Of a DNA stretch of 64,000 bases, positions 23,444 to 31,479 are shown piece by piece. A program made the translations under genes and the position numbers. Numbering within the stretch: position 1 is the first letter of the stretch; each line of letters opens with the position of its first letter. The DNA is from an uncultured Croceitalea sp. Its GTDB lineage: Bacteria; Bacteroidota; Bacteroidia; Flavobacteriales; Flavobacteriaceae. The notes under the pieces were generated by a model, which ran no database searches, was not told the DNA's origin, and saw only the letters and a list, made by a program, of their open reading frames with translations. The DNA lies in the NCBI GenBank assembly GCA_947495075.1, contig CANLXH010000001.1, forward strand, positions 1,178,001 to 1,242,000, written 5' to 3'.

Positions 23444-24040
23444 TCAGTGTCTAGACTCCAAAACTTTAACAATATCATTCAGTGTAAATCCTTTTGCTTG
23501 TAACAGAATTAAATAGTGAAACAACAAATCAGCACTTTCATTTAGGAACAACTCATCATTATTGTCTTTGGCTTCGATAACCGTTTCTACAGCTTCTTCC
23601 CCTACTTTTTGAGCAATTTTATTAATTCCTTTTTCAAAAAGAGAAGCTACATACGACTTTTCGCCATCAGCAGAAGTTCGTCTTTGCTTTATAATATTTT
23701 CAAGTGCTGAGAGGAATCCAAAACTTGAGGTGTTTTCTTCGTTCCAACAAGTATCACTTCCGGTATGACAAGTAGGTCCTGTGGGGTTTACATAAATTAA
23801 CAAGGTGTCATTATCACAATCATTTTTTATATTCACTAAGTTCAGGTAATTTCCGCTTTCCTCTCCTTTAGTCCATAATCTTTGTTTAGAACGACTAAAG
23901 AAAGTAACTCTTTTTGTCTCTTGAGTTTTATCAAAAGCTTTTTGGTTCATATAGCCCAACATTAACACATTTTTAGTTTGTGCGTCTTGAATTATAGCTG
24001 GTATAAGACCATCACTATTTTTTGTGAAATCTATTTTCAT
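23444..24040 (-). CDS. hisIE: Bifunctional phosphoribosyl-AMP cyclohydrolase / phosphoribosyl-ATP pyrophosphatase
   Basis: 198 residues. The N-terminal HisI domain (about 1-105) opens the adenine ring of [22 protein letters not shown] and the zinc/Mg ligands in DCDNDTLL and [12 protein letters not shown] are present. The C-terminal HisE domain (about 108-198) removes pyrophosphate from PR-ATP, with [10 protein letters not shown] and [13 protein letters not shown]. Together they carry out steps 2 and 3 of histidine synthesis. Last gene of the operon, overlapping hisF by 4 bases. Confidence 0.96.
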
Positions 24041-24792
24041 ATTCGTACTGGAATACCTTCCGATTTTAATGCCGTTTTCAAATCTTTTATCTCAATTTCT
24101 TTAAAGTGGAAGACACTTGCAGCTAGCGCTGCATCAGATTTTCCTTCTTTAAAAGTATCTGTAAAATCAGCTATTTTACCTGCTCCACCAGAAGCGATTA
24201 TAGGAATATTTAATTCGCTAGACAATCTGTCTAAAGCTTCGTTTGCAAAACCATCTTTTGTACCATCATTATCCATTGAGGTAAATAAAATTTCACCTGC
24301 ACCTCTTTTTTCAACTTCTTTTGCCCAATCGAACAAATCTAATTTTGTAGGGACCTTACCCCCAACTAAATGTACTATCCAATTATCTTTAATTTGCTTG
24401 GCATCAATCGCAACTACAATACATTGCGAACCAAACTTGGCTACTAGTTCATTTATTAAATCTGGATTTTTAACTGCTGATGAGTTTATAGACACCTTAT
24501 CCGCACCATTCTTGAGCAAGATGTCTACATCTTCCACAGATGAGATGCCTCCGCCTACAGTAAAAGGAATATTTAATTTCTCTGCTACCTTGAATACTAA
24601 TTCTGCCAATGTTTTTCTTTTTTGTTCAGTAGCGGATATGTCGAGAAAAACCAATTCGTCTGCACCTTCTTTCGCATAACGCTGAGCAAGTTCTATAGGA
24701 TCGCCGGCATCACGCAAGTCCACAAAATTAACCCCTTTAACTGTTCTACCATCTTTAATGTCTAAACAAGGAATAATTCTTTTAGTCAACAT
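24037..24792 (-). CDS. hisF: Imidazole glycerol phosphate synthase, cyclase subunit
   Basis: 251 residues, a (beta/alpha)8 barrel. Catalytic Asp residues are seen in [13 protein letters not shown] and VVAIDAKQ; the phosphate-binding loops are VGGGISS and ASGGAG. It receives ammonia from HisH and converts PRFAR to imidazole glycerol phosphate and AICAR, feeding purine synthesis as well. It overlaps hisA by 11 bases and hisIE by 4. Confidence 0.97.
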
Positions 24793-25561
24793 TTATTATA
24801 TATTTTTCTAATTGTTTTAAGCTAATTTTATTTTCATAAATGGCTTTCCCAATAATTACACCTTCACAACCAATTTCCTTAAGTTTTGGTAACTCATCGA
24901 AATGAGAAATACCTCCACTAGCTATTAAATAAATTCCATTTTCTATGAAATCTTCAACTCCAGCTCCTGTAACAATAGTTTTATGAACTTTTGTCTTACT
25001 TAATAACTTTTTGTACAGATTAAACGCAGGACCTTGTAGCATTCCATCCTTAGATATGTCTGTACAAATCACATACTTCACTCCTATTTTTTGGTATTCT
25101 TGTACAAACGGTATTAACTCTTCTTTAGACTCCTCTAGCCATCCAGATATGGCTACTTTCTCTTCTAAAGCATCTGCTCCAAGAATAATTTTATCGCTTC
25201 CATACACATTTAACCATCCTAAAAAAGTAGTTCTATCCTTTACAGCAATACTCCCTCCAGTAACTTGATTTGCACCACTTTCAAAGGCAATTCGTAAATC
25301 ATCATCAGATTTTAATCCGCCTCCAAAATCTATTTTCAAAGAGGTTTTACCTGCAATTTCTTCTAAAATCTTATGATTTATAATGTTTTTGGATTTTGCA
25401 CCATCTAAATCCACAAGGTGTAAATATTCAATACCATGCGCTTCAAAAGATTTGGCTACCTCCAAAGGACTCTCATTATAGATTTTTTTTGTTTCATAAT
25501 CTCCTTTGGATAGGCGAACACACTTACCTTCAATGATATCAATTGCTGGAATTATTCTCAT
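24782..25561 (-). CDS. hisA: ProFAR isomerase
   Basis: 259 residues, barrel homologous to HisF. The Asp in [13 protein letters not shown] and the [11 protein letters not shown] segment mark the two half-barrels; phosphate loops are DFGGGLKS and ASGGIS. It carries out the Amadori rearrangement of ProFAR to PRFAR. The gene is somewhat longer than the E. coli enzyme (245 residues). It lies 3 bases after hisH and overlaps hisF by 11 bases. Confidence 0.96.
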
Positions 25562-25564
25562 AAT

Positions 25565-26143
25565 TTAAAGGCTAATAAAGTTTTCTAAAATTTTAGCCCC
25601 ATAGTTTCCAGATTTTTCTGGATGAAATTGGGTTCCAAAAAAATTATCCTTTTGTAACGCAGCAGAATATTCAATTCCATAAGTACTGGTAGCAATTGTT
25701 TCTTTGGCTTTTGGAGCGTAAAAACTGTGGACTAAATAAATAAAATCACTCTCAAGACCTTTAAATAAGTCTGACTCTAAATTTTCAATCTTATTCCAAC
25801 CTACCTGAGGTACTTTAACTGCATTCCTAAAGCGTTTTACTTCTGTATCAAAAATACCTAGACCATTAGTGTTACCTTCTTCAGATGAATTACACATTAA
25901 TTGCATTCCTAAGCAAATACCTAGTACTGGTTGTTTTAAATCTGGTATAATCACATCCAAACCACTAGCTAGAAGTTTCTTCATAGCACTGCTAGCTTCA
26001 CCAACACCAGGAAAAATAACTTTATCGGCATTTCGAATAACTTTTGAATCATTACTCAATTCGGCATTAATTCCAAGTCTTTGAAAAGCAAACTTAATAC
26101 TCTGAATATTGCCAGCACCATAATCGATAATTACCAAATTCAT
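25565..26143 (-). CDS. hisH: Imidazole glycerol phosphate synthase, glutaminase subunit
   Basis: 192 residues, a class I glutamine amidotransferase. The nucleophile is Cys in [10 protein letters not shown]; the His/Glu pair is in FHPEKSG; the oxyanion strand is YGAGN near the N-terminus. It supplies ammonia to HisF. ATG overlaps the hisB stop by 4 bases. Confidence 0.97.
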
Positions 26144-27276
26144 AAAACTCCTTTTGTTGAGGGTAACACCATTTTTTCTACATCTCTTTTTACGGCCATT
26201 TTAATGGCTTTGGCAAAAGCCTTAAAAATTGCTTCAATTTTATGATGCTCATTAGTCCCTTCTGCTTTTATATTTAGATTTGCTTTTGCTCCATCAGTAA
26301 ATGATTTAAAAAAATGATAGAACATTTCTGTCGGCATATCGCCTACCATCTCACGTTTAAACTCTGCATTCCAAACAAGCCAGTTTCGACCTCCAAAATC
26401 TATAGCTACTTGAGCTAAACAATCATCCATTGGTAAACAGAAACCATATCTTTCAATACCTAATTTATTTCCCAAAGCTTCATGAAACACCTCGCCTAAA
26501 GTGATTGCAGTATCCTCGATAGTATGATGTTCGTCTACTTCCAAATCACCATCCACGGCAATCTTTAAATCCATTTGGCCATGTCTTGCCAATTGGTCTA
26601 ACATGTGGTCGAAAAAAGCTAGACCTGTATTTATATCACTCTTCCCTGCTCCATCTAGGTTTAAATCAATCTGTATGTTTGTTTCTTTTGTTTTGCGATG
26701 TGTAGAAGCTGTTCTCGTTTGTAGTTTTAAAAACTCATAAATCTTTTCCCAATCATTACTTTCTAAAGCGATTACAGCATCAAGTAATTCTTGTTTTACT
26801 GTTATTTCACCAGCTCCTAAATTGGTCTCATCATTAATAAAAATACCTTTAGAGCCCAGATTCTTTGCCAATTCCATATCTGTTAAACGATCTCCGATAA
26901 CAAAGGATTTTTCTAAATCATAGTCCTCCTCGAAATATTTGGTTAAAAGACCTGTTTTAGGTTTTCTTGTATTTGCATTGTCTTTGGGAAATGTTCTATC
27001 TATAAAAACTTCTTGAAAAACTACGCCTTCGTTCTCAAAAGACTTTAATATAAAATTATGAACAGGCCAAAATGTATCTTCAGGAAAGTTTTCTGTCCCT
27101 AACCCATCTTGATTCGTTATCATGACTAATTCGTAATCCAGTTCTTTAGCTATTCTACTTAGATAGGTAAATACTTTGGGATAGAAAATCATTTTGTTAA
27201 AAGCATCTATCTGTTCGTCAATCGTTTCTTTTATGATTGTACCGTCCCTATCTATAAATAATACCTTTTTCGACAT
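26140..27276 (-). CDS. hisB: Bifunctional histidinol-phosphatase / imidazoleglycerol-phosphate dehydratase
   Basis: 378 residues. The N-terminal HAD phosphatase (about 1-165; FIDRDGT, DxDxT-type, and [10 protein letters not shown]) dephosphorylates histidinol phosphate. The C-terminal IGP dehydratase (about 188-378) has the metal-binding [10 protein letters not shown] and DEHHTIED motifs. The fused form is known in Enterobacteria and Bacteroidota. With it, the cluster needs no separate phosphatase. It lies 2 bases after hisC. Confidence 0.96.
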
Positions 27277-27278
27277 TG

Positions 27279-28319
27279 TTAAATTGCTTTAAGCGCTTTT
27301 ATTAAGAATGTGTTCTCTTTTGGTGTGCCAACTGTAAAACGTAAGGTGTTAGAACACAATGGTTGTTTAGTTCTATTTCTAATAACAATTCCTCTTTCTA
27401 TAAGTTGATTATAACGTAACTCTGCATCATCTACTTTAGCTAAAATAAAATTAGCGTGACTATCGTATGTTTTTTGAACAAAAAATATCTCCCCTAATTT
27501 TTTAATAAGTCTTTTGCGTTCCTCCAAAATACTAGCGATTTGAGCTATCAATGCCTTCGAATTTTCTATGCCTTTTAGAGCTCGCTGTTGTGTTAATTCA
27601 TTGATATTGTAAGGAGGCTTTATCTTTTTAAGAATGTTAATAATATCTTCAGATGCATAACACATACCTAAGCGTATTCCAGCCATAGCATATGCTTTAG
27701 AAAGTGTTTGAGTAACAACTAGATTTGGGTAATCATTTAAACTATTAATCCAAGATTCTGAACCAGAAAAATCGATATAAGCTTCATCAATAACAACTAG
27801 ACCTTTAAAATTAGTTAGCAACTCTTTTATTTTCTCTTTCTCTAGTAAATTACCCGTTGGATTATTTGGTGAACACAAAAACAAAAGTTTAGTATTCTTA
27901 TCTACTTTAGTAAGGACTTTTGCTACGTCTGGTTGAAATTCAGTTGTTAATAAGACTTCCCTATTTTCAATAGCATTTGTACCAGAAAGTACTTTATACA
28001 TACCATAGGTTGGAGGTAACGAAATTATATTGTCCTTATTTGGTTCACAAAAAGCTCTAAAAAGTAAGTCTAATACCTCATCACTACCATTCCCTAATAG
28101 AATTTGCTCTTCTCTGATACGTTTTTGTGTGGATAAAACTGATTTGATATTTTTTTGCTGTGGATCTGGATATCTGTTAACTCCATTGTCGTATGGGTTC
28201 TCATTAGCATCTAAAAAAATCATTTCTACGTTCTTTGATGTAAATTCATCGCGTGCCGAAGAATAAGGTTGTAAGGCTTTTATATTTTCTCTAACCAAAA
28301 TATCCAGTTGAAACCCCAT
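27279..28319 (-). CDS. hisC: Histidinol-phosphate aminotransferase
   Basis: 346 residues, class I/II PLP aminotransferase. The PLP lysine lies in [16 protein letters not shown]; other landmarks are [17 protein letters not shown] and CSPNNPTGN. It transfers the amino group from glutamate to imidazole acetol phosphate. One base separates it from hisD. Confidence 0.96.
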
Positions 28320-28320
28320 A

Positions 28321-29607
28321 CTAATTTTTTAAGCTATTTAAACGTAGCGTGACCGCATTTTTATGGGCTTGTAAGCCTTCAGCTTCTGCCATTAATTCTA
28401 TGGTTTTCCCTAAAGTTGCAATTCCTTCTTTAGTTAATTTTTGAAAAGTCATACTCTTTAAAAAGCTATCTAAATTTACCCCACTATACTGCTTAGCATA
28501 ACCATTAGTCGGTAAAGTATGATTAGTCCCAGAAGCATAATCCCCAGCACTTTCTGGAGTATAGTTTCCTATAAAAACAGAGCCTGCATTTATAGTATTT
28601 TGTATATAGAATTCTTCGTTTTTTACACAAACTATATAATGTTCTGGACCATATTCATTTATCAAGTCTAGTGCTTGGGCATCTGTCTCAACATAAATCA
28701 ATTTACTGTTATTAATTGCTTCTTGCGCTATGTCTTTCCTTGGAAGTTCTATAAGTTGCTTTTCAATTTCCGATTCAACACTCGAAATTAATTTTTTTGA
28801 GGTAGATATTAGTATAACCTGACTGTCGACACCATGTTCTGCTTGACTTAACAAATCTGAAGCAACAAAAGATGGATTAGCACTCTCATCTGCCACTACT
28901 AATAGTTCACTTGGTCCTGCTGGCATGTCTATGGCAACTCCATATTTAGTTGCCCACTGTTTGGCAACAGTAACATACTGATTACCAGGACCAAAAATCT
29001 TATATACTTTGGGAATACTTTCTGTTCCAAAAGTTAATCCTGCAATAGCCTGTATCCCACCTACTTTAAAAATCTTGGTAACTTCACATAAATTTGCGGT
29101 ATACAAAATAGCAGGGTTTAGTTTTCCATTTTTATCTGGTGGACTACAGAGAACAATTTCTTTACAACCTGCAATTTTAGCTGGAATGGCTAGCATAAGA
29201 ATAGTTGAAAATAGTGGTGCTGTACCTCCTGGTATATAAAGTCCAACCTTTTCTATAGGACGCTTTTCTTGCCAACAACTAACACCAGACATAGTTTCTA
29301 CAACAACCTTACTCGTTTCTTGGGCTTTATGAAAGCTTTCAATGTTTTGTTTAGCAACATTTATAGCACTTTTGAGTTCTTGAGAAACTGAATTGATAGC
29401 TTCCTCTATTTCTGTATTAGAGGCAGGTTGTAGCTCCTGTTCAACTTTATCAAATTTTTTTGTGTATTTCTTAATCGCAAAATCTCCATTACTTTCTACA
29501 TTAGCAAAAACCTCTGCCACGATACCTTCTATAGCTTCAAAAGATTGTGTTGGTCTTTTTAAAAGCTCCGGCCAAGTACATTTATCTGGACTGTATATTT
29601 TATTCAT
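28321..29607 (-). CDS. hisD: Histidinol dehydrogenase
   Basis: I place the start at ATG 29607 (MNKIYSPDK), which forms a TAATG overlap of one base with hisG. An in-frame ATG at 29634 lies inside hisG and would add nine residues. The 428-residue product fits the family. Motifs include YIPGGTAPLFST, GPGNQYV, MPAGPSELLVVADE and AEHGVDSQ; the zinc and catalytic His residues are in EHG and YGPEHYI. It oxidises histidinol to histidine in two NAD-dependent steps. Confidence 0.96.
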   Translation of the reverse strand: MNKIYSPDKCTWPELLKRPTQSFEAIEGIVAEVFANVESNGDFAIKKYTKKFDKVEQELQPASNTEIEEAINSVSQELKSAINVAKQNIESFHKAQETSKVVVETMSGVSCWQEKRPIEKVGLYIPGGTAPLFSTILMLAIPAKIAGCKEIVLCSPPDKNGKLNPAILYTANLCEVTKIFKVGGIQAIAGLTFGTESIPKVYKIFGPGNQYVTVAKQWATKYGVAIDMPAGPSELLVVADESANPSFVASDLLSQAEHGVDSQVILISTSKKLISSVESEIEKQLIELPRKDIAQEAINNSKLIYVETDAQALDLINEYGPEHYIVCVKNEEFYIQNTINAGSVFIGNYTPESAGDYASGTNHTLPTNGYAKQYSGVNLDSFLKSMTFQKLTKEGIATLGKTIELMAEAEGLQAHKNAVTLRLNSLKN

Positions 29608-30464
29608 TACAATACCATTTTCTCGATAGGGCATACTAAAATACCTTCTGCGCCTGCAGATTTCAATTCATCTATAACTTCCCAGAATTTATCCTTATTG
29701 ATAACCGTATGGACAGAATTCCAACCTTCATCGGCAAGTGGTAATACTGTAGGACTGCGCATACCGGGCAATAATTTTAAAATTTTATCTAATTTATCAT
29801 TAGGGGCGTTCAATAAAACATATTTTGATTGTCTAGCTCTTAATACAGACTGTAATCTAAATTGTAGTTTGCTAAGAAGTGTTTTGCGTTCCTCATTAAT
29901 TTTAGGTGAAACTGCCAAAACAGCTTCGCTCTTAAGCATTACTTCTACTTCTTTTAGATTATTCTTAAAAAGTGTACTTCCGCTAGAAACAATATCACAA
30001 ATACCATCTGCAAGACCAATGTTTGGGGCAATCTCTACAGAACCATTGATAATATGCAAATCAGCAGTAACTCCCTTCTCTTCTAAGTATTTTTTGACTG
30101 TATTAGGATACGAAGTGGCAATACGTTTCCCTTGAAAATAATTTATAGAACTATATTCAACAGATTTAGGAATGGCAAGTGATACTTTACACTTAGAAAA
30201 ATTTAAGCGCTCTGCTATAGTAATACCTTCTCCTTTTTCTATAAGTACATTTTCGCCAATAATAGCAATATCCACCACTCCATCTCTTAAATATTGAGGA
30301 ATATCTCCATTTCTCAGATAGAACACCTCTAGAGGAAAGTTACGCGCCGTTGCCTTTAGTTGGTCCTTACCATTATCAATTGAAATTCCAGCTTCTTTCA
30401 AAATCTTTAATGAGTCTTCATTAAGACGACCACTTTTTTGAATAGCAATTCTAATTTTAGTCAT
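29607..30464 (-). CDS. hisG: ATP phosphoribosyltransferase (long form)
   Basis: 285 residues, the long HisG form with a C-terminal regulatory ACT-like domain (about 212-285). Such enzymes are hexameric and inhibited by histidine directly, without HisZ. N-terminal landmarks are IAIQKSGRLNEDSL and DVAIIGENVL; the PRPP loop is DIVSSGSTLF. It commits ATP and PRPP to histidine synthesis. It is the first structural gene, 36 bases downstream of the attenuator hairpin. Confidence 0.96.
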   Translation of the reverse strand: MTKIRIAIQKSGRLNEDSLKILKEAGISIDNGKDQLKATARNFPLEVFYLRNGDIPQYLRDGVVDIAIIGENVLIEKGEGITIAERLNFSKCKVSLAIPKSVEYSSINYFQGKRIATSYPNTVKKYLEEKGVTADLHIINGSVEIAPNIGLADGICDIVSSGSTLFKNNLKEVEVMLKSEAVLAVSPKINEERKTLLSKLQFRLQSVLRARQSKYVLLNAPNDKLDKILKLLPGMRSPTVLPLADEGWNSVHTVINKDKFWEVIDELKSAGAEGILVCPIEKMVL

Positions 30465-30500
30465 TTTTAAATTTTAATATAAGAGCAATCAATACAGGTA

Positions 30501-30535
30501 AAAACAAAACCCGTTTGATTGCTCAAACGGGTTTT
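30501..30535 (-). terminator. Intrinsic terminator of the his leader (attenuator)
   Basis: On the minus strand AAAACCCGTTTGA pairs perfectly with TCAAACGGGTTTT around a GCAA loop, giving a 13-pair stem followed by a U-run broken by a single G (TTTTGTTTTT overall). It lies between the His-rich leader peptide gene and hisG, where an attenuator terminator belongs. The second half of the loop and stem (GAGCAATCAA) is also perfectly complementary to TTGATTGCTC just downstream, so a competing fold exists. Confidence 0.88.
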
Positions 30536-30552
30536 AAATTATTTTGAAATAC

Positions 30553-30609
30553 ACAAAATATCGCTACCTCGCCTAAGCGTGTGTTACGATATGATGATGT
30601 ATATTTTGT
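30553..30609 (-). promoter_or_regulatory. Leader RNA hairpin enclosing the His codons
   Basis: In the minus-strand transcript ACAAAAUAU (30609-30601), inside the leader gene, pairs with AUAUUUUGU (30561-30553) after its stop codon. The His codons lie in the loop. The same downstream arm can instead pair through GCGAUAU with AUAUCG (30592-30587). Ribosome position on the leader would decide between them. I could not find a clear antiterminator that would pair with the 5' arm of the terminator. Confidence 0.45.
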
Positions 30610-30617
30610 TTTCTCAT
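30573..30617 (-). CDS. hisL: his operon leader peptide
   Basis: A 14-residue open frame, MRKQNIHHHIVTHA, with four His codons, three of them consecutive (CAT CAT CAT, then CAC). It starts at ATG 30617 and stops 38 bases before a strong terminator and 109 bases before hisG. This is the hallmark of transcription attenuation: ribosome stalling on His codons when charged tRNA-His is scarce should favour read-through. The symbol hisL is by analogy with enterobacteria; there is no sequence homology. No exact promoter box is visible in the 46 bases between it and the upstream gene. Confidence 0.85.
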   Translation of the reverse strand: MRKQNIHHHIVTHA

Positions 30618-30663
30618 TACAGATGTAAAATTAAAACTTAATTTCTTTACAAAAAAGTAAATA

Positions 30664-31479
30664 TTAGTTATTTCCTAAAATTAGCGGTAATCCATCTCCA
30701 CTAGAACCTACTACTACTACTTTAGAGTTTGGAGATTTAGAGAGTTCTAATGTAGCCTCAATTCCTTTATCTTGTAGAATCTTATCTGTTAAAGATGCAC
30801 TTAGGATACGATTTGCATCAGCTTTACCTTGGGCTTCAATTCGTACTTTCTCTGCTTCTTTTGCAGCAGTAACCAAACGGAATTCATACTCCAAAGATTC
30901 TTGCTCCTGCTTTAATTTACGCTCAATCGCTTCTTTAATTGTTGGTGGTAATGTTACATCTCTAATTAATACTTCATTAAGCTGAATGTATTGGTCACCT
31001 ACAATTTTTCGAGTCTCTTCAAAAATTTCAATTTGTATTGCGTCTCGTTTACTAGAATATAATTGCTCTGGCGTATAACGCCCAACAACGCTCCTTGCTG
31101 CAGACCTAATAGCTGGCAAAAGTATTCTATCTATATATTGCTCACTCTTTTCTTGATGCAGTTTCCCTAAATCCTCATATTTTGGTTGAAACCAAGTAGA
31201 TGCATCTAACTGTATATCTAAACCATTAGATGATAGTACTTTCATCTTTTCAAAAACTTCTTGCTGTCTTACTTCATAAACGTAAACCTTGTTCCAAGGA
31301 GCAACTAAATGAAACCCTTCTCCTAAGGGCGGCTCATCTGTTACTACGCCATCCCCAAAAGTTTTATACAGTACTCCAGCTTCTCCAGAACCTATAGTAA
31401 TTGCAGATTTAGAAATTAAAATAATAGCTAAAATCACAATAAATACTACGGGCAAAGCAATCTTTGGCAATTTATCCAT
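30664..31479 (-). CDS. Prohibitin/SPFH (band 7) domain membrane protein
   Basis: 271 residues. A single N-terminal membrane helix (about 8-27) is followed by an SPFH domain (about 28-200; GEAGVLYKTFG, GFHLVAPW, RSAARSVVGRYTPEQLY) and a coiled-coil region rich in Glu, Ala and Lys (about 195-235). Family members form large ring or cage assemblies in the membrane and often escort FtsH-type proteases. There is no FtsH gene nearby. The gene lies 10 bases after the VWA membrane protein gene. Confidence 0.9.
   Translation of the reverse strand: MDKLPKIALPVVFIVILAIILISKSAITIGSGEAGVLYKTFGDGVVTDEPPLGEGFHLVAPWNKVYVYEVRQQEVFEKMKVLSSNGLDIQLDASTWFQPKYEDLGKLHQEKSEQYIDRILLPAIRSAARSVVGRYTPEQLYSSKRDAIQIEIFEETRKIVGDQYIQLNEVLIRDVTLPPTIKEAIERKLKQEQESLEYEFRLVTAAKEAEKVRIEAQGKADANRILSASLTDKILQDKGIEATLELSKSPNSKVVVVGSSGDGLPLILGNN

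Follow-up and report, generated by a model that had tools for sequence, protein, structure and literature searches.

How the histidine biosynthesis genes are controlled in Bacteroidota, a phylum without Shine-Dalgarno signals, is the question raised by the locus described here. The enteric his attenuator consists of a short frame with a run of His codons, an intrinsic terminator and an alternative pairing, which are located before the his operon, and the enteric leader peptide contains seven His codons in a row. The principle of his attenuation is textbook knowledge, and the Bacteroidota are a group in which it is little studied. Attenuation in bacteria was reportedly surveyed by Lopatovskaya et al. 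in 2010 (Mol Biol 44:128), and this survey may well cover the Bacteroidetes.

The window, i.e., the whole stretch of 64,000 nucleotides that was analysed, carries a complete his operon, hisGDCBHAF-hisIE, on its minus strand. hisG (29607..30464; TIGR00070 over cut-off) is the first gene of the regulated operon and is followed by hisD, hisC, hisB, hisH, hisA, hisF and hisIE in this order (23444..29634, minus strand); each gene from hisG through hisIE has an NCBIfam equivalog-type match over its cut-off. The next gene upstream on the same strand (30664..31479) lies 199 nt from hisG. A search against NCBIfam gave no match for this gene, which by our own reading is SPFH/prohibitin-like, and an SPFH relative is found upstream of hisG in 58 of 80 named loci. 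The 199 nt contain a small frame, a hairpin and a promoter-like box, and we consider it very probable, judging from the sequence, that they form a ribosome-mediated transcription attenuator of the his operon of the classical type. The frame, its His codons, the terminator, the complementarity between both, their spacing and their conservation are observed and provide the basis of this reading.

A conserved His-rich leader frame

The leader peptide frame, MRKQNIHHHIVTHA followed by TAG, is located on the minus strand at 30573..30617, with its ATG at 30617 and the TAG at 30575-30573, and ends 108 nt before hisG. It contains three consecutive His codons, codons 7-9 (CAT CAT CAT, 30591..30599), which are the likely sensing codons, and a fourth one, CAC, as codon 13 (30579..30581). 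The preliminary description of this DNA had claimed a 14-codon His-rich frame directly before hisG, which we can confirm, and had considered its His codons hard to explain by chance. This is borne out by shuffling: when the 200 nt upstream of hisG were dinucleotide-shuffled 5000 times, no ATG frame of 8 to 30 codons containing HHH arose, and an HHH frame is present in 156 of 163 real hisG upstream regions of the own family versus 2 of 3260 shuffles. Six of the seven misses have an interrupted His run (YHH in L020 and L049, HQHH in L080, HRHH in L089 and L113, HHYFH in L194), and the seventh, L081, has no leader within its 180 nt of contig.

A first set of 110 loci comprised 107 distinct hisG upstream regions of the own family, and 106 of them have such a frame; the one exception is limited to 180 nt of contig. 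A comparison of relatives for a conserved frame with His codons and a conserved hairpin had been proposed in the preliminary description, which regarded a loss of the His codons as evidence against attenuation; frame and hairpin turned out to be conserved, such a loss did not occur, and leader-peptide attenuation is thereby supported. Carriers of the leader include Maribacter, Zobellia, Cellulophaga, Arenibacter, Allomuricauda, Aquimarina, Tenacibaculum and Kordia, and typical peptides of the family are MRNKNTHHHFYTCPQAR, followed by a stop, MTFIQLHHHFHICSQAN and MNNIFVHHHHSYIFAQAW. Most leaders of the family have three to four His codons, and in 154 of the 160 leaders tallied, codon 7 is the first of the longest His run. 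Histidine is encoded by CAT (579 codons) or CAC (54 codons), and all three stop codons are used. Gaps within the frame in A1, an alignment of 103 leader sequences of the family, are multiples of three, and the distance between stop codon and hairpin takes lengths of every kind, with few exceptions from 22 to 38 nt. The leader frame is probably translated. In the relatives, it ends with CAA or CAG, GCG, AGG and a stop codon (QAR). The frame of the window has its TAG where the relatives have the Gln codon, and thus no longer codes for Ala-Arg. The coded Gln-Ala-Arg end is lost and the RNA pairing described below is kept in the window as well as in L002, L011 and L043.

The terminator hairpin and a probable alternative pairing

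Between the leader frame and hisG, a terminator scan identified an intrinsic terminator hairpin of 14 pairs with a loop of 4 (30505..30536, minus strand), which is directly followed by a U-tract (30495..30504); TTTTGTTTTT overlaps the end of the stem. The preliminary description had placed a terminator hairpin here, and it is indeed present at this position, but with 14 pairs according to the scan instead of the 13 pairs claimed. The folding energy of the 121-nt leader corresponds to a z-score of -7.3, and 0 of 200 shuffles were as good. In A1, the terminator is paired in 99.8% of cells with two pairs changed on both sides, and it is the only structure found by RNAalifold in the 103 rows. As these rows are too alike, covariation is uninformative, and slid columns, the asymmetry of the arms and shuffles were used instead.

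It could be argued that the hairpin is a mere terminator of the SPFH-like gene and that the adjacent His-rich frame arose by chance. This gene shares the strand of the leader, 46 nt separate its end from the leader ATG, and the frequent occurrence of its relatives upstream of hisG would fit such a role. However, of the 22 named loci in which the fetched stretch contains no SPFH relative (it is shorter than 1 kb in four of them), 21 have leader and terminator as well, and the conservation of the His frame goes far beyond chance, leaving this explanation with very little credence.

A second explanation concerns translation: the leader frame could control translation of hisG, either by reinitiation or by release of the hisG start, and not transcription. 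Leader genes close to a gene start have been proposed, in the text of PMC4833913 on such genes, to raise translation by reinitiation, and no terminator was recognised in 16 of 206 regions with a His frame. The criterion used (6 pairs, 3 of them G-C, and a T-rich tail) missed weak hairpins with T-runs, e.g., in L157 and L160. The distances in that proposal, as given there, are 10-14 nt, whereas the stop codon of the window's leader is separated from hisG by the 108 nt mentioned above, and a strong terminator with a U-tract is located in between. Control of translation is therefore very unlikely.

Attenuation requires an RNA segment that competes for the terminator, and the most likely candidate, which the preliminary description had not pointed out, is the end of the leader frame paired with the 5' arm of the terminator. 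In the relatives, the RNA of the leader end reads CUCAAGCGAGG and can base-pair with this 5' arm, CCCGUUUGAG. The version of the window, CUUAGGCGAGG (segment 2, 30567..30577, minus strand), which overlaps the leader stop codon, still pairs with CCCGUUUGAG (segment 3, 30522..30531, minus strand) using U-G and G-U pairs; segment 3 is common to the putative antiterminator and the terminator. Standard pairs between segments 2 and 3 are found in 96.4% of 927 A1 cells, versus 19-48% after a shift of the partner by 1-3 columns. Within the own family (A1), no antiterminator pair is changed in both partners, and 157 of 500 shuffles are as good as the real pairing, so that the signal in this family is one of conservation and not of covariation. 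The two arms of the terminator differ in their rate of change: the nine core positions of the 5' arm contain one change in 103 rows, whereas their 3' partners contain 23, of which 22 keep a U-G pair. A nearly frozen 5' arm and a drifting 3' partner would be expected if the 5' arm also paired elsewhere.

In 162 of the 190 regions that have a terminator, the stretch behind the His run forms a duplex with the terminator 5' arm that ranks among the top 5 against 100 shuffles; this count is based on a scan that used a wrong frame for L186 and missed L049, both of which are normal leaders when read. The window's own duplex reaches only rank 10 of 100 against shuffles. Putative antiterminator helices of other sequence are found at the same place in other families, e.g., AAGACGGA with ACCGUCUG in f2, GGUAAGC with GCUUAC(C) in f4, CAGGUAG with CCUACCUG in f5 and UGGCAGGUUU with AAGGCUUGCC in f8. 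When arms were swapped between families, the result was clear for f2 and f8, where 0 foreign arms were as good, and for some others, but the own arm beat 95% of the foreign arms in only 11 of 33 cases. As the arm swap was only partly favourable, compensatory replacement is not claimed for every family.

A structured leader with a terminator and an alternative pairing would also be expected if a tRNA- or ligand-sensing RNA such as a T-box or a riboswitch controlled the terminator, with the small frame being incidental. However, no Rfam family reached its gathering score anywhere in the window. With relaxed thresholds, the leader yielded 31 matches up to an E-value of 5, which were at chance level, with none over gathering and no T-box among them. 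RF00514 (His_leader) had no match at gathering in the window either and was absent from these 31 leader matches. Moreover, the His codons are conserved in frame and number, and such an RNA is an extremely improbable explanation.

A putative switch controlled by the position of the ribosome

A translating ribosome was modelled as a mask on the RNA that ends 12 nt downstream of the first A-site base (assumed footprint), with the terminator 3' arm still absent. For the window, the computed probability of pairing between segments 2 and 3 is 0.71 with the ribosome at any of the His codons 7-9 and 0.00 with the ribosome at the stop codon. The means of 161 sequences of the own family are 0.69 at the His codons and 0.00 at the stop codon, and the difference between the ribosome positions exceeds 0.3 in 160 of these 161 sequences and in 24 of 29 regions outside the own family. 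Without a ribosome, the 2:3 pairing has a probability of 0.63 in the window, of 0.43 in the mean of the own family and of 0.02-0.04 in f2 and f5. As the 2:3 pairing still reaches 0.63 in this state, a protector (1:2) helix, which would favour termination when the leader is untranslated, appears weak in the window; according to the model, it appears clearer in f2 and f5. At equilibrium with the complete hairpin, the terminator wins in every ribosome state of the window (0.86-0.97), and the switch would therefore have to rest on the order of folding.

The following mechanism is proposed. RNA polymerase would start around 4 nt before the leader AUG, and translation of MRKQNIHHH by the first ribosome would follow close behind the polymerase. 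When charged His-tRNA is scarce, the ribosome would wait at codons 7-9, thereby covering the next few codons, but not CUUAGGCGAGG. The free CUUAGGCGAGG could then pair with CCCGUUUGAG on its emergence, the terminator would form too late, and hisG would be transcribed. With plentiful histidine, the ribosome would reach the stop codon and cover CUUAGGCGAGG; CCCGUUUGAG would then pair with its 3' partner, and transcription would end at the U-tract. A stall at codon 13, should it occur, would cover segment 2 and favour termination; codons 7-9 precede codon 13 on the path of the ribosome. The product of the pathway encoded by the regulated operon, histidine, matches the leader codons. The start site, the translation of the leader, the order of folding and the response to histidine are thus all predictions drawn from the DNA.

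The putative promoter and a probably nearly leaderless start

A putative -7 promoter box, TAATTTTA (consensus TAnnTTTG), is located 8 nt before the leader ATG (30626..30633, minus strand), and a T-run with TTTG (30656-30650, minus strand) probably represents the -33 element. In 86 of 158 family leaders, versus 318 of 6320 shuffles, a box TAnnTT(T/C)N ends 6-9 nt before the leader ATG; L024 was left out of this count (158 instead of 159), since its upstream stretch is cut at the ATG and its box (10 nt) may be misread. Conservation in those 86 leaders extends to TTT at -38 to -36 and to an A-tract near -26 to -24. According to the promoter descriptions in PMC9723704 and PMC6847099, the -7 box of flavobacteria occupies -12 to -5, which would place the start around 2-5 nt before the leader AUG. 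In the window, transcription probably starts at about 30621, corresponding to a 5' UTR of around 4 nt. With the promoter box as close to the AUG as in the 86 leaders, the leader mRNA appears to be almost leaderless. From the figures given in the respective reports, 5.5% are leaderless in F. psychrophilum (PMC9723704), about 3.7% have a 5' UTR of less than 10 nt in B. thetaiotaomicron, and 87% of the 5' UTRs of F. johnsoniae are longer than 10 nt (PMC6847099). 5' UTRs as short as this one are uncommon in Bacteroidota.

The short form is associated with synteny: among 74 scorable named loci, it is present in 51 of the 54 with an SPFH relative upstream, versus 0 of the 20 without. Due to this association, the short UTR may simply result from a lack of room for the promoter behind the upstream gene, or from common ancestry, instead of being required by the switch. 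Such a requirement is weakly supported by the Trp leader of this genome, which likewise lies close to its box. The whole leader promoter fits into the 46 nt (30618-30663) between the SPFH-like gene and the leader ATG.

His leaders in other Bacteroidota and Trp leaders

With the query used, hisG was found in 171 of 198 genomes of the phylum. Upstream regions were examined in 67 of these 171 genomes, a non-random set of mostly the best-scoring ones, of which 51 are outside the own family. A His-rich frame, here defined as an ATG frame that does not exceed 30 codons and contains HH and a total of four or more His codons, precedes hisG in 36 of the 51 regions of other Bacteroidota families versus 11 of 2040 shuffles, and 29 of the 51 have a terminator by the criterion given above. 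None of the nine regions from f9, f10, f17, f20, f23 and f24 has a frame of this definition. It may be suggested, tentatively and with doubts prevailing, that His leader-peptide attenuation could be an old trait of most Bacteroidota, which was retained even as the peptide, the sequence of the helix and the terminator were replaced family by family; in a large flavobacterial clade, the leader would have become nearly leaderless, its start codon following the transcription start by a few nucleotides, with leaderless initiation timing the first ribosome for the his and trp switches.

Several leaders deviate from this layout. In those of f22, His pairs are scattered over the frame as far as its end (e.g., ...HHGHHIVH), and five of six have no recognised terminator; L169, L172, L175, L176 and L177 of this family have many such pairs up to the last codon (e.g., HTAHHTHHGSHHGHHIVH and stop), lack a recognised terminator and represent a different design. 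In L157, L160 and L162 of f3, the leader end can form its own strong hairpin (ATCGCC...GGCGAT) over the last codons, which is followed by at most a weak terminator. The frames of L132, L140 and L143 of f8 end with HHFHHSS and lack a recognised terminator, and L136-L138 of the same family have one.

A Trp leader of the same design as the His leader is located before trpE in the own genome (L219, G000:C4). Its frame, MKTINKNWWWINLRRIS and stop, lies 164 to 110 nt upstream of the start of the trpE match (1501) and is followed by a hairpin, AAGGCTTGTC-ATCAC-GACAAGCCTT, and a T-run; the promoter box TATATTTG ends 5 nt before the Trp leader ATG. Among 29 trpE upstream regions, 22 have an ATG frame with WWW and three more have one with WW. 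Judged by eye, the frame of the Trp leaders (L219, L222-L249) often ends with TCGTGA, and the loop region of the terminator contains TCACGA; pairing between both could represent an antiterminator layout unlike that of the His leader. No comparable leader was found in the 400 nt upstream of ilvD of the own genome (L218).

Significance and comparison with known attenuators

Classical attenuation requires coupled transcription and translation as well as fast loading of the first ribosome. Conserved His and Trp attenuators in one genome would imply both in a phylum without Shine-Dalgarno signals, and the His attenuator could serve as a natural reporter for testing coupling and ribosome loading. 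With the nearly leaderless leaders, it could also be tested whether leaderless initiation is rapid enough for a ribosome to be seated behind the polymerase. Furthermore, the attenuator predicts the mode of control of the his operons of many Bacteroidota, where the Rfam searches of this window give no match.

The preliminary description had stated that leader-peptide attenuation is best known from enterobacteria. This is a fair statement, but attenuation has already been proposed in print for a flavobacterium: strong indications that amino-acid operons of F. psychrophilum are preceded by leader-peptide attenuators are reported in the text of PMC9723704 on this subject. In this 2021 work, a conserved structured element before hisG was described, which is also present in other genera and has no Rfam match (PMC9723704). 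The element of the window resembles it in belonging to the same family and preceding the same gene, hisG. In the passages of PMC9723704 on hisG and on attenuation, the peptide, the antiterminator, the start-site spacing, the short 5' UTR and the wider spread are not given.

The frame and its presumed 5' end can be compared with a leader from another phylum. In Sinorhizobium meliloti, the attenuator leader frame of trpL is located at the very 5' end of the RNA and is thus leaderless, as described in the text of PMC7298713 on trpL. This case concerns Trp and an alphaproteobacterium, and its 5' end is reported, whereas that of the flavobacterial His leader is deduced from the position of the promoter box.

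A general description of his attenuation can be found in the part of PMC9413887 dealing with it, where His leader attenuators with three to five His codons and a terminator and antiterminator before his operons are also predicted for Firmicutes. The leaders described here are similar to these in their His codons and in having a terminator and a likely antiterminator; they belong to another phylum and are likened by their layout. Compared with the enterobacterial his attenuator (RF00514 His_leader), most leaders of the own family have three to four His codons instead of seven in a row, and the flavobacterial leader is nearly without a 5' UTR and, in the window, without a recognisable strong protector helix. 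Both systems share, however, a frame with a His run, a terminator and an alternative pairing, which are located directly before the his operon.
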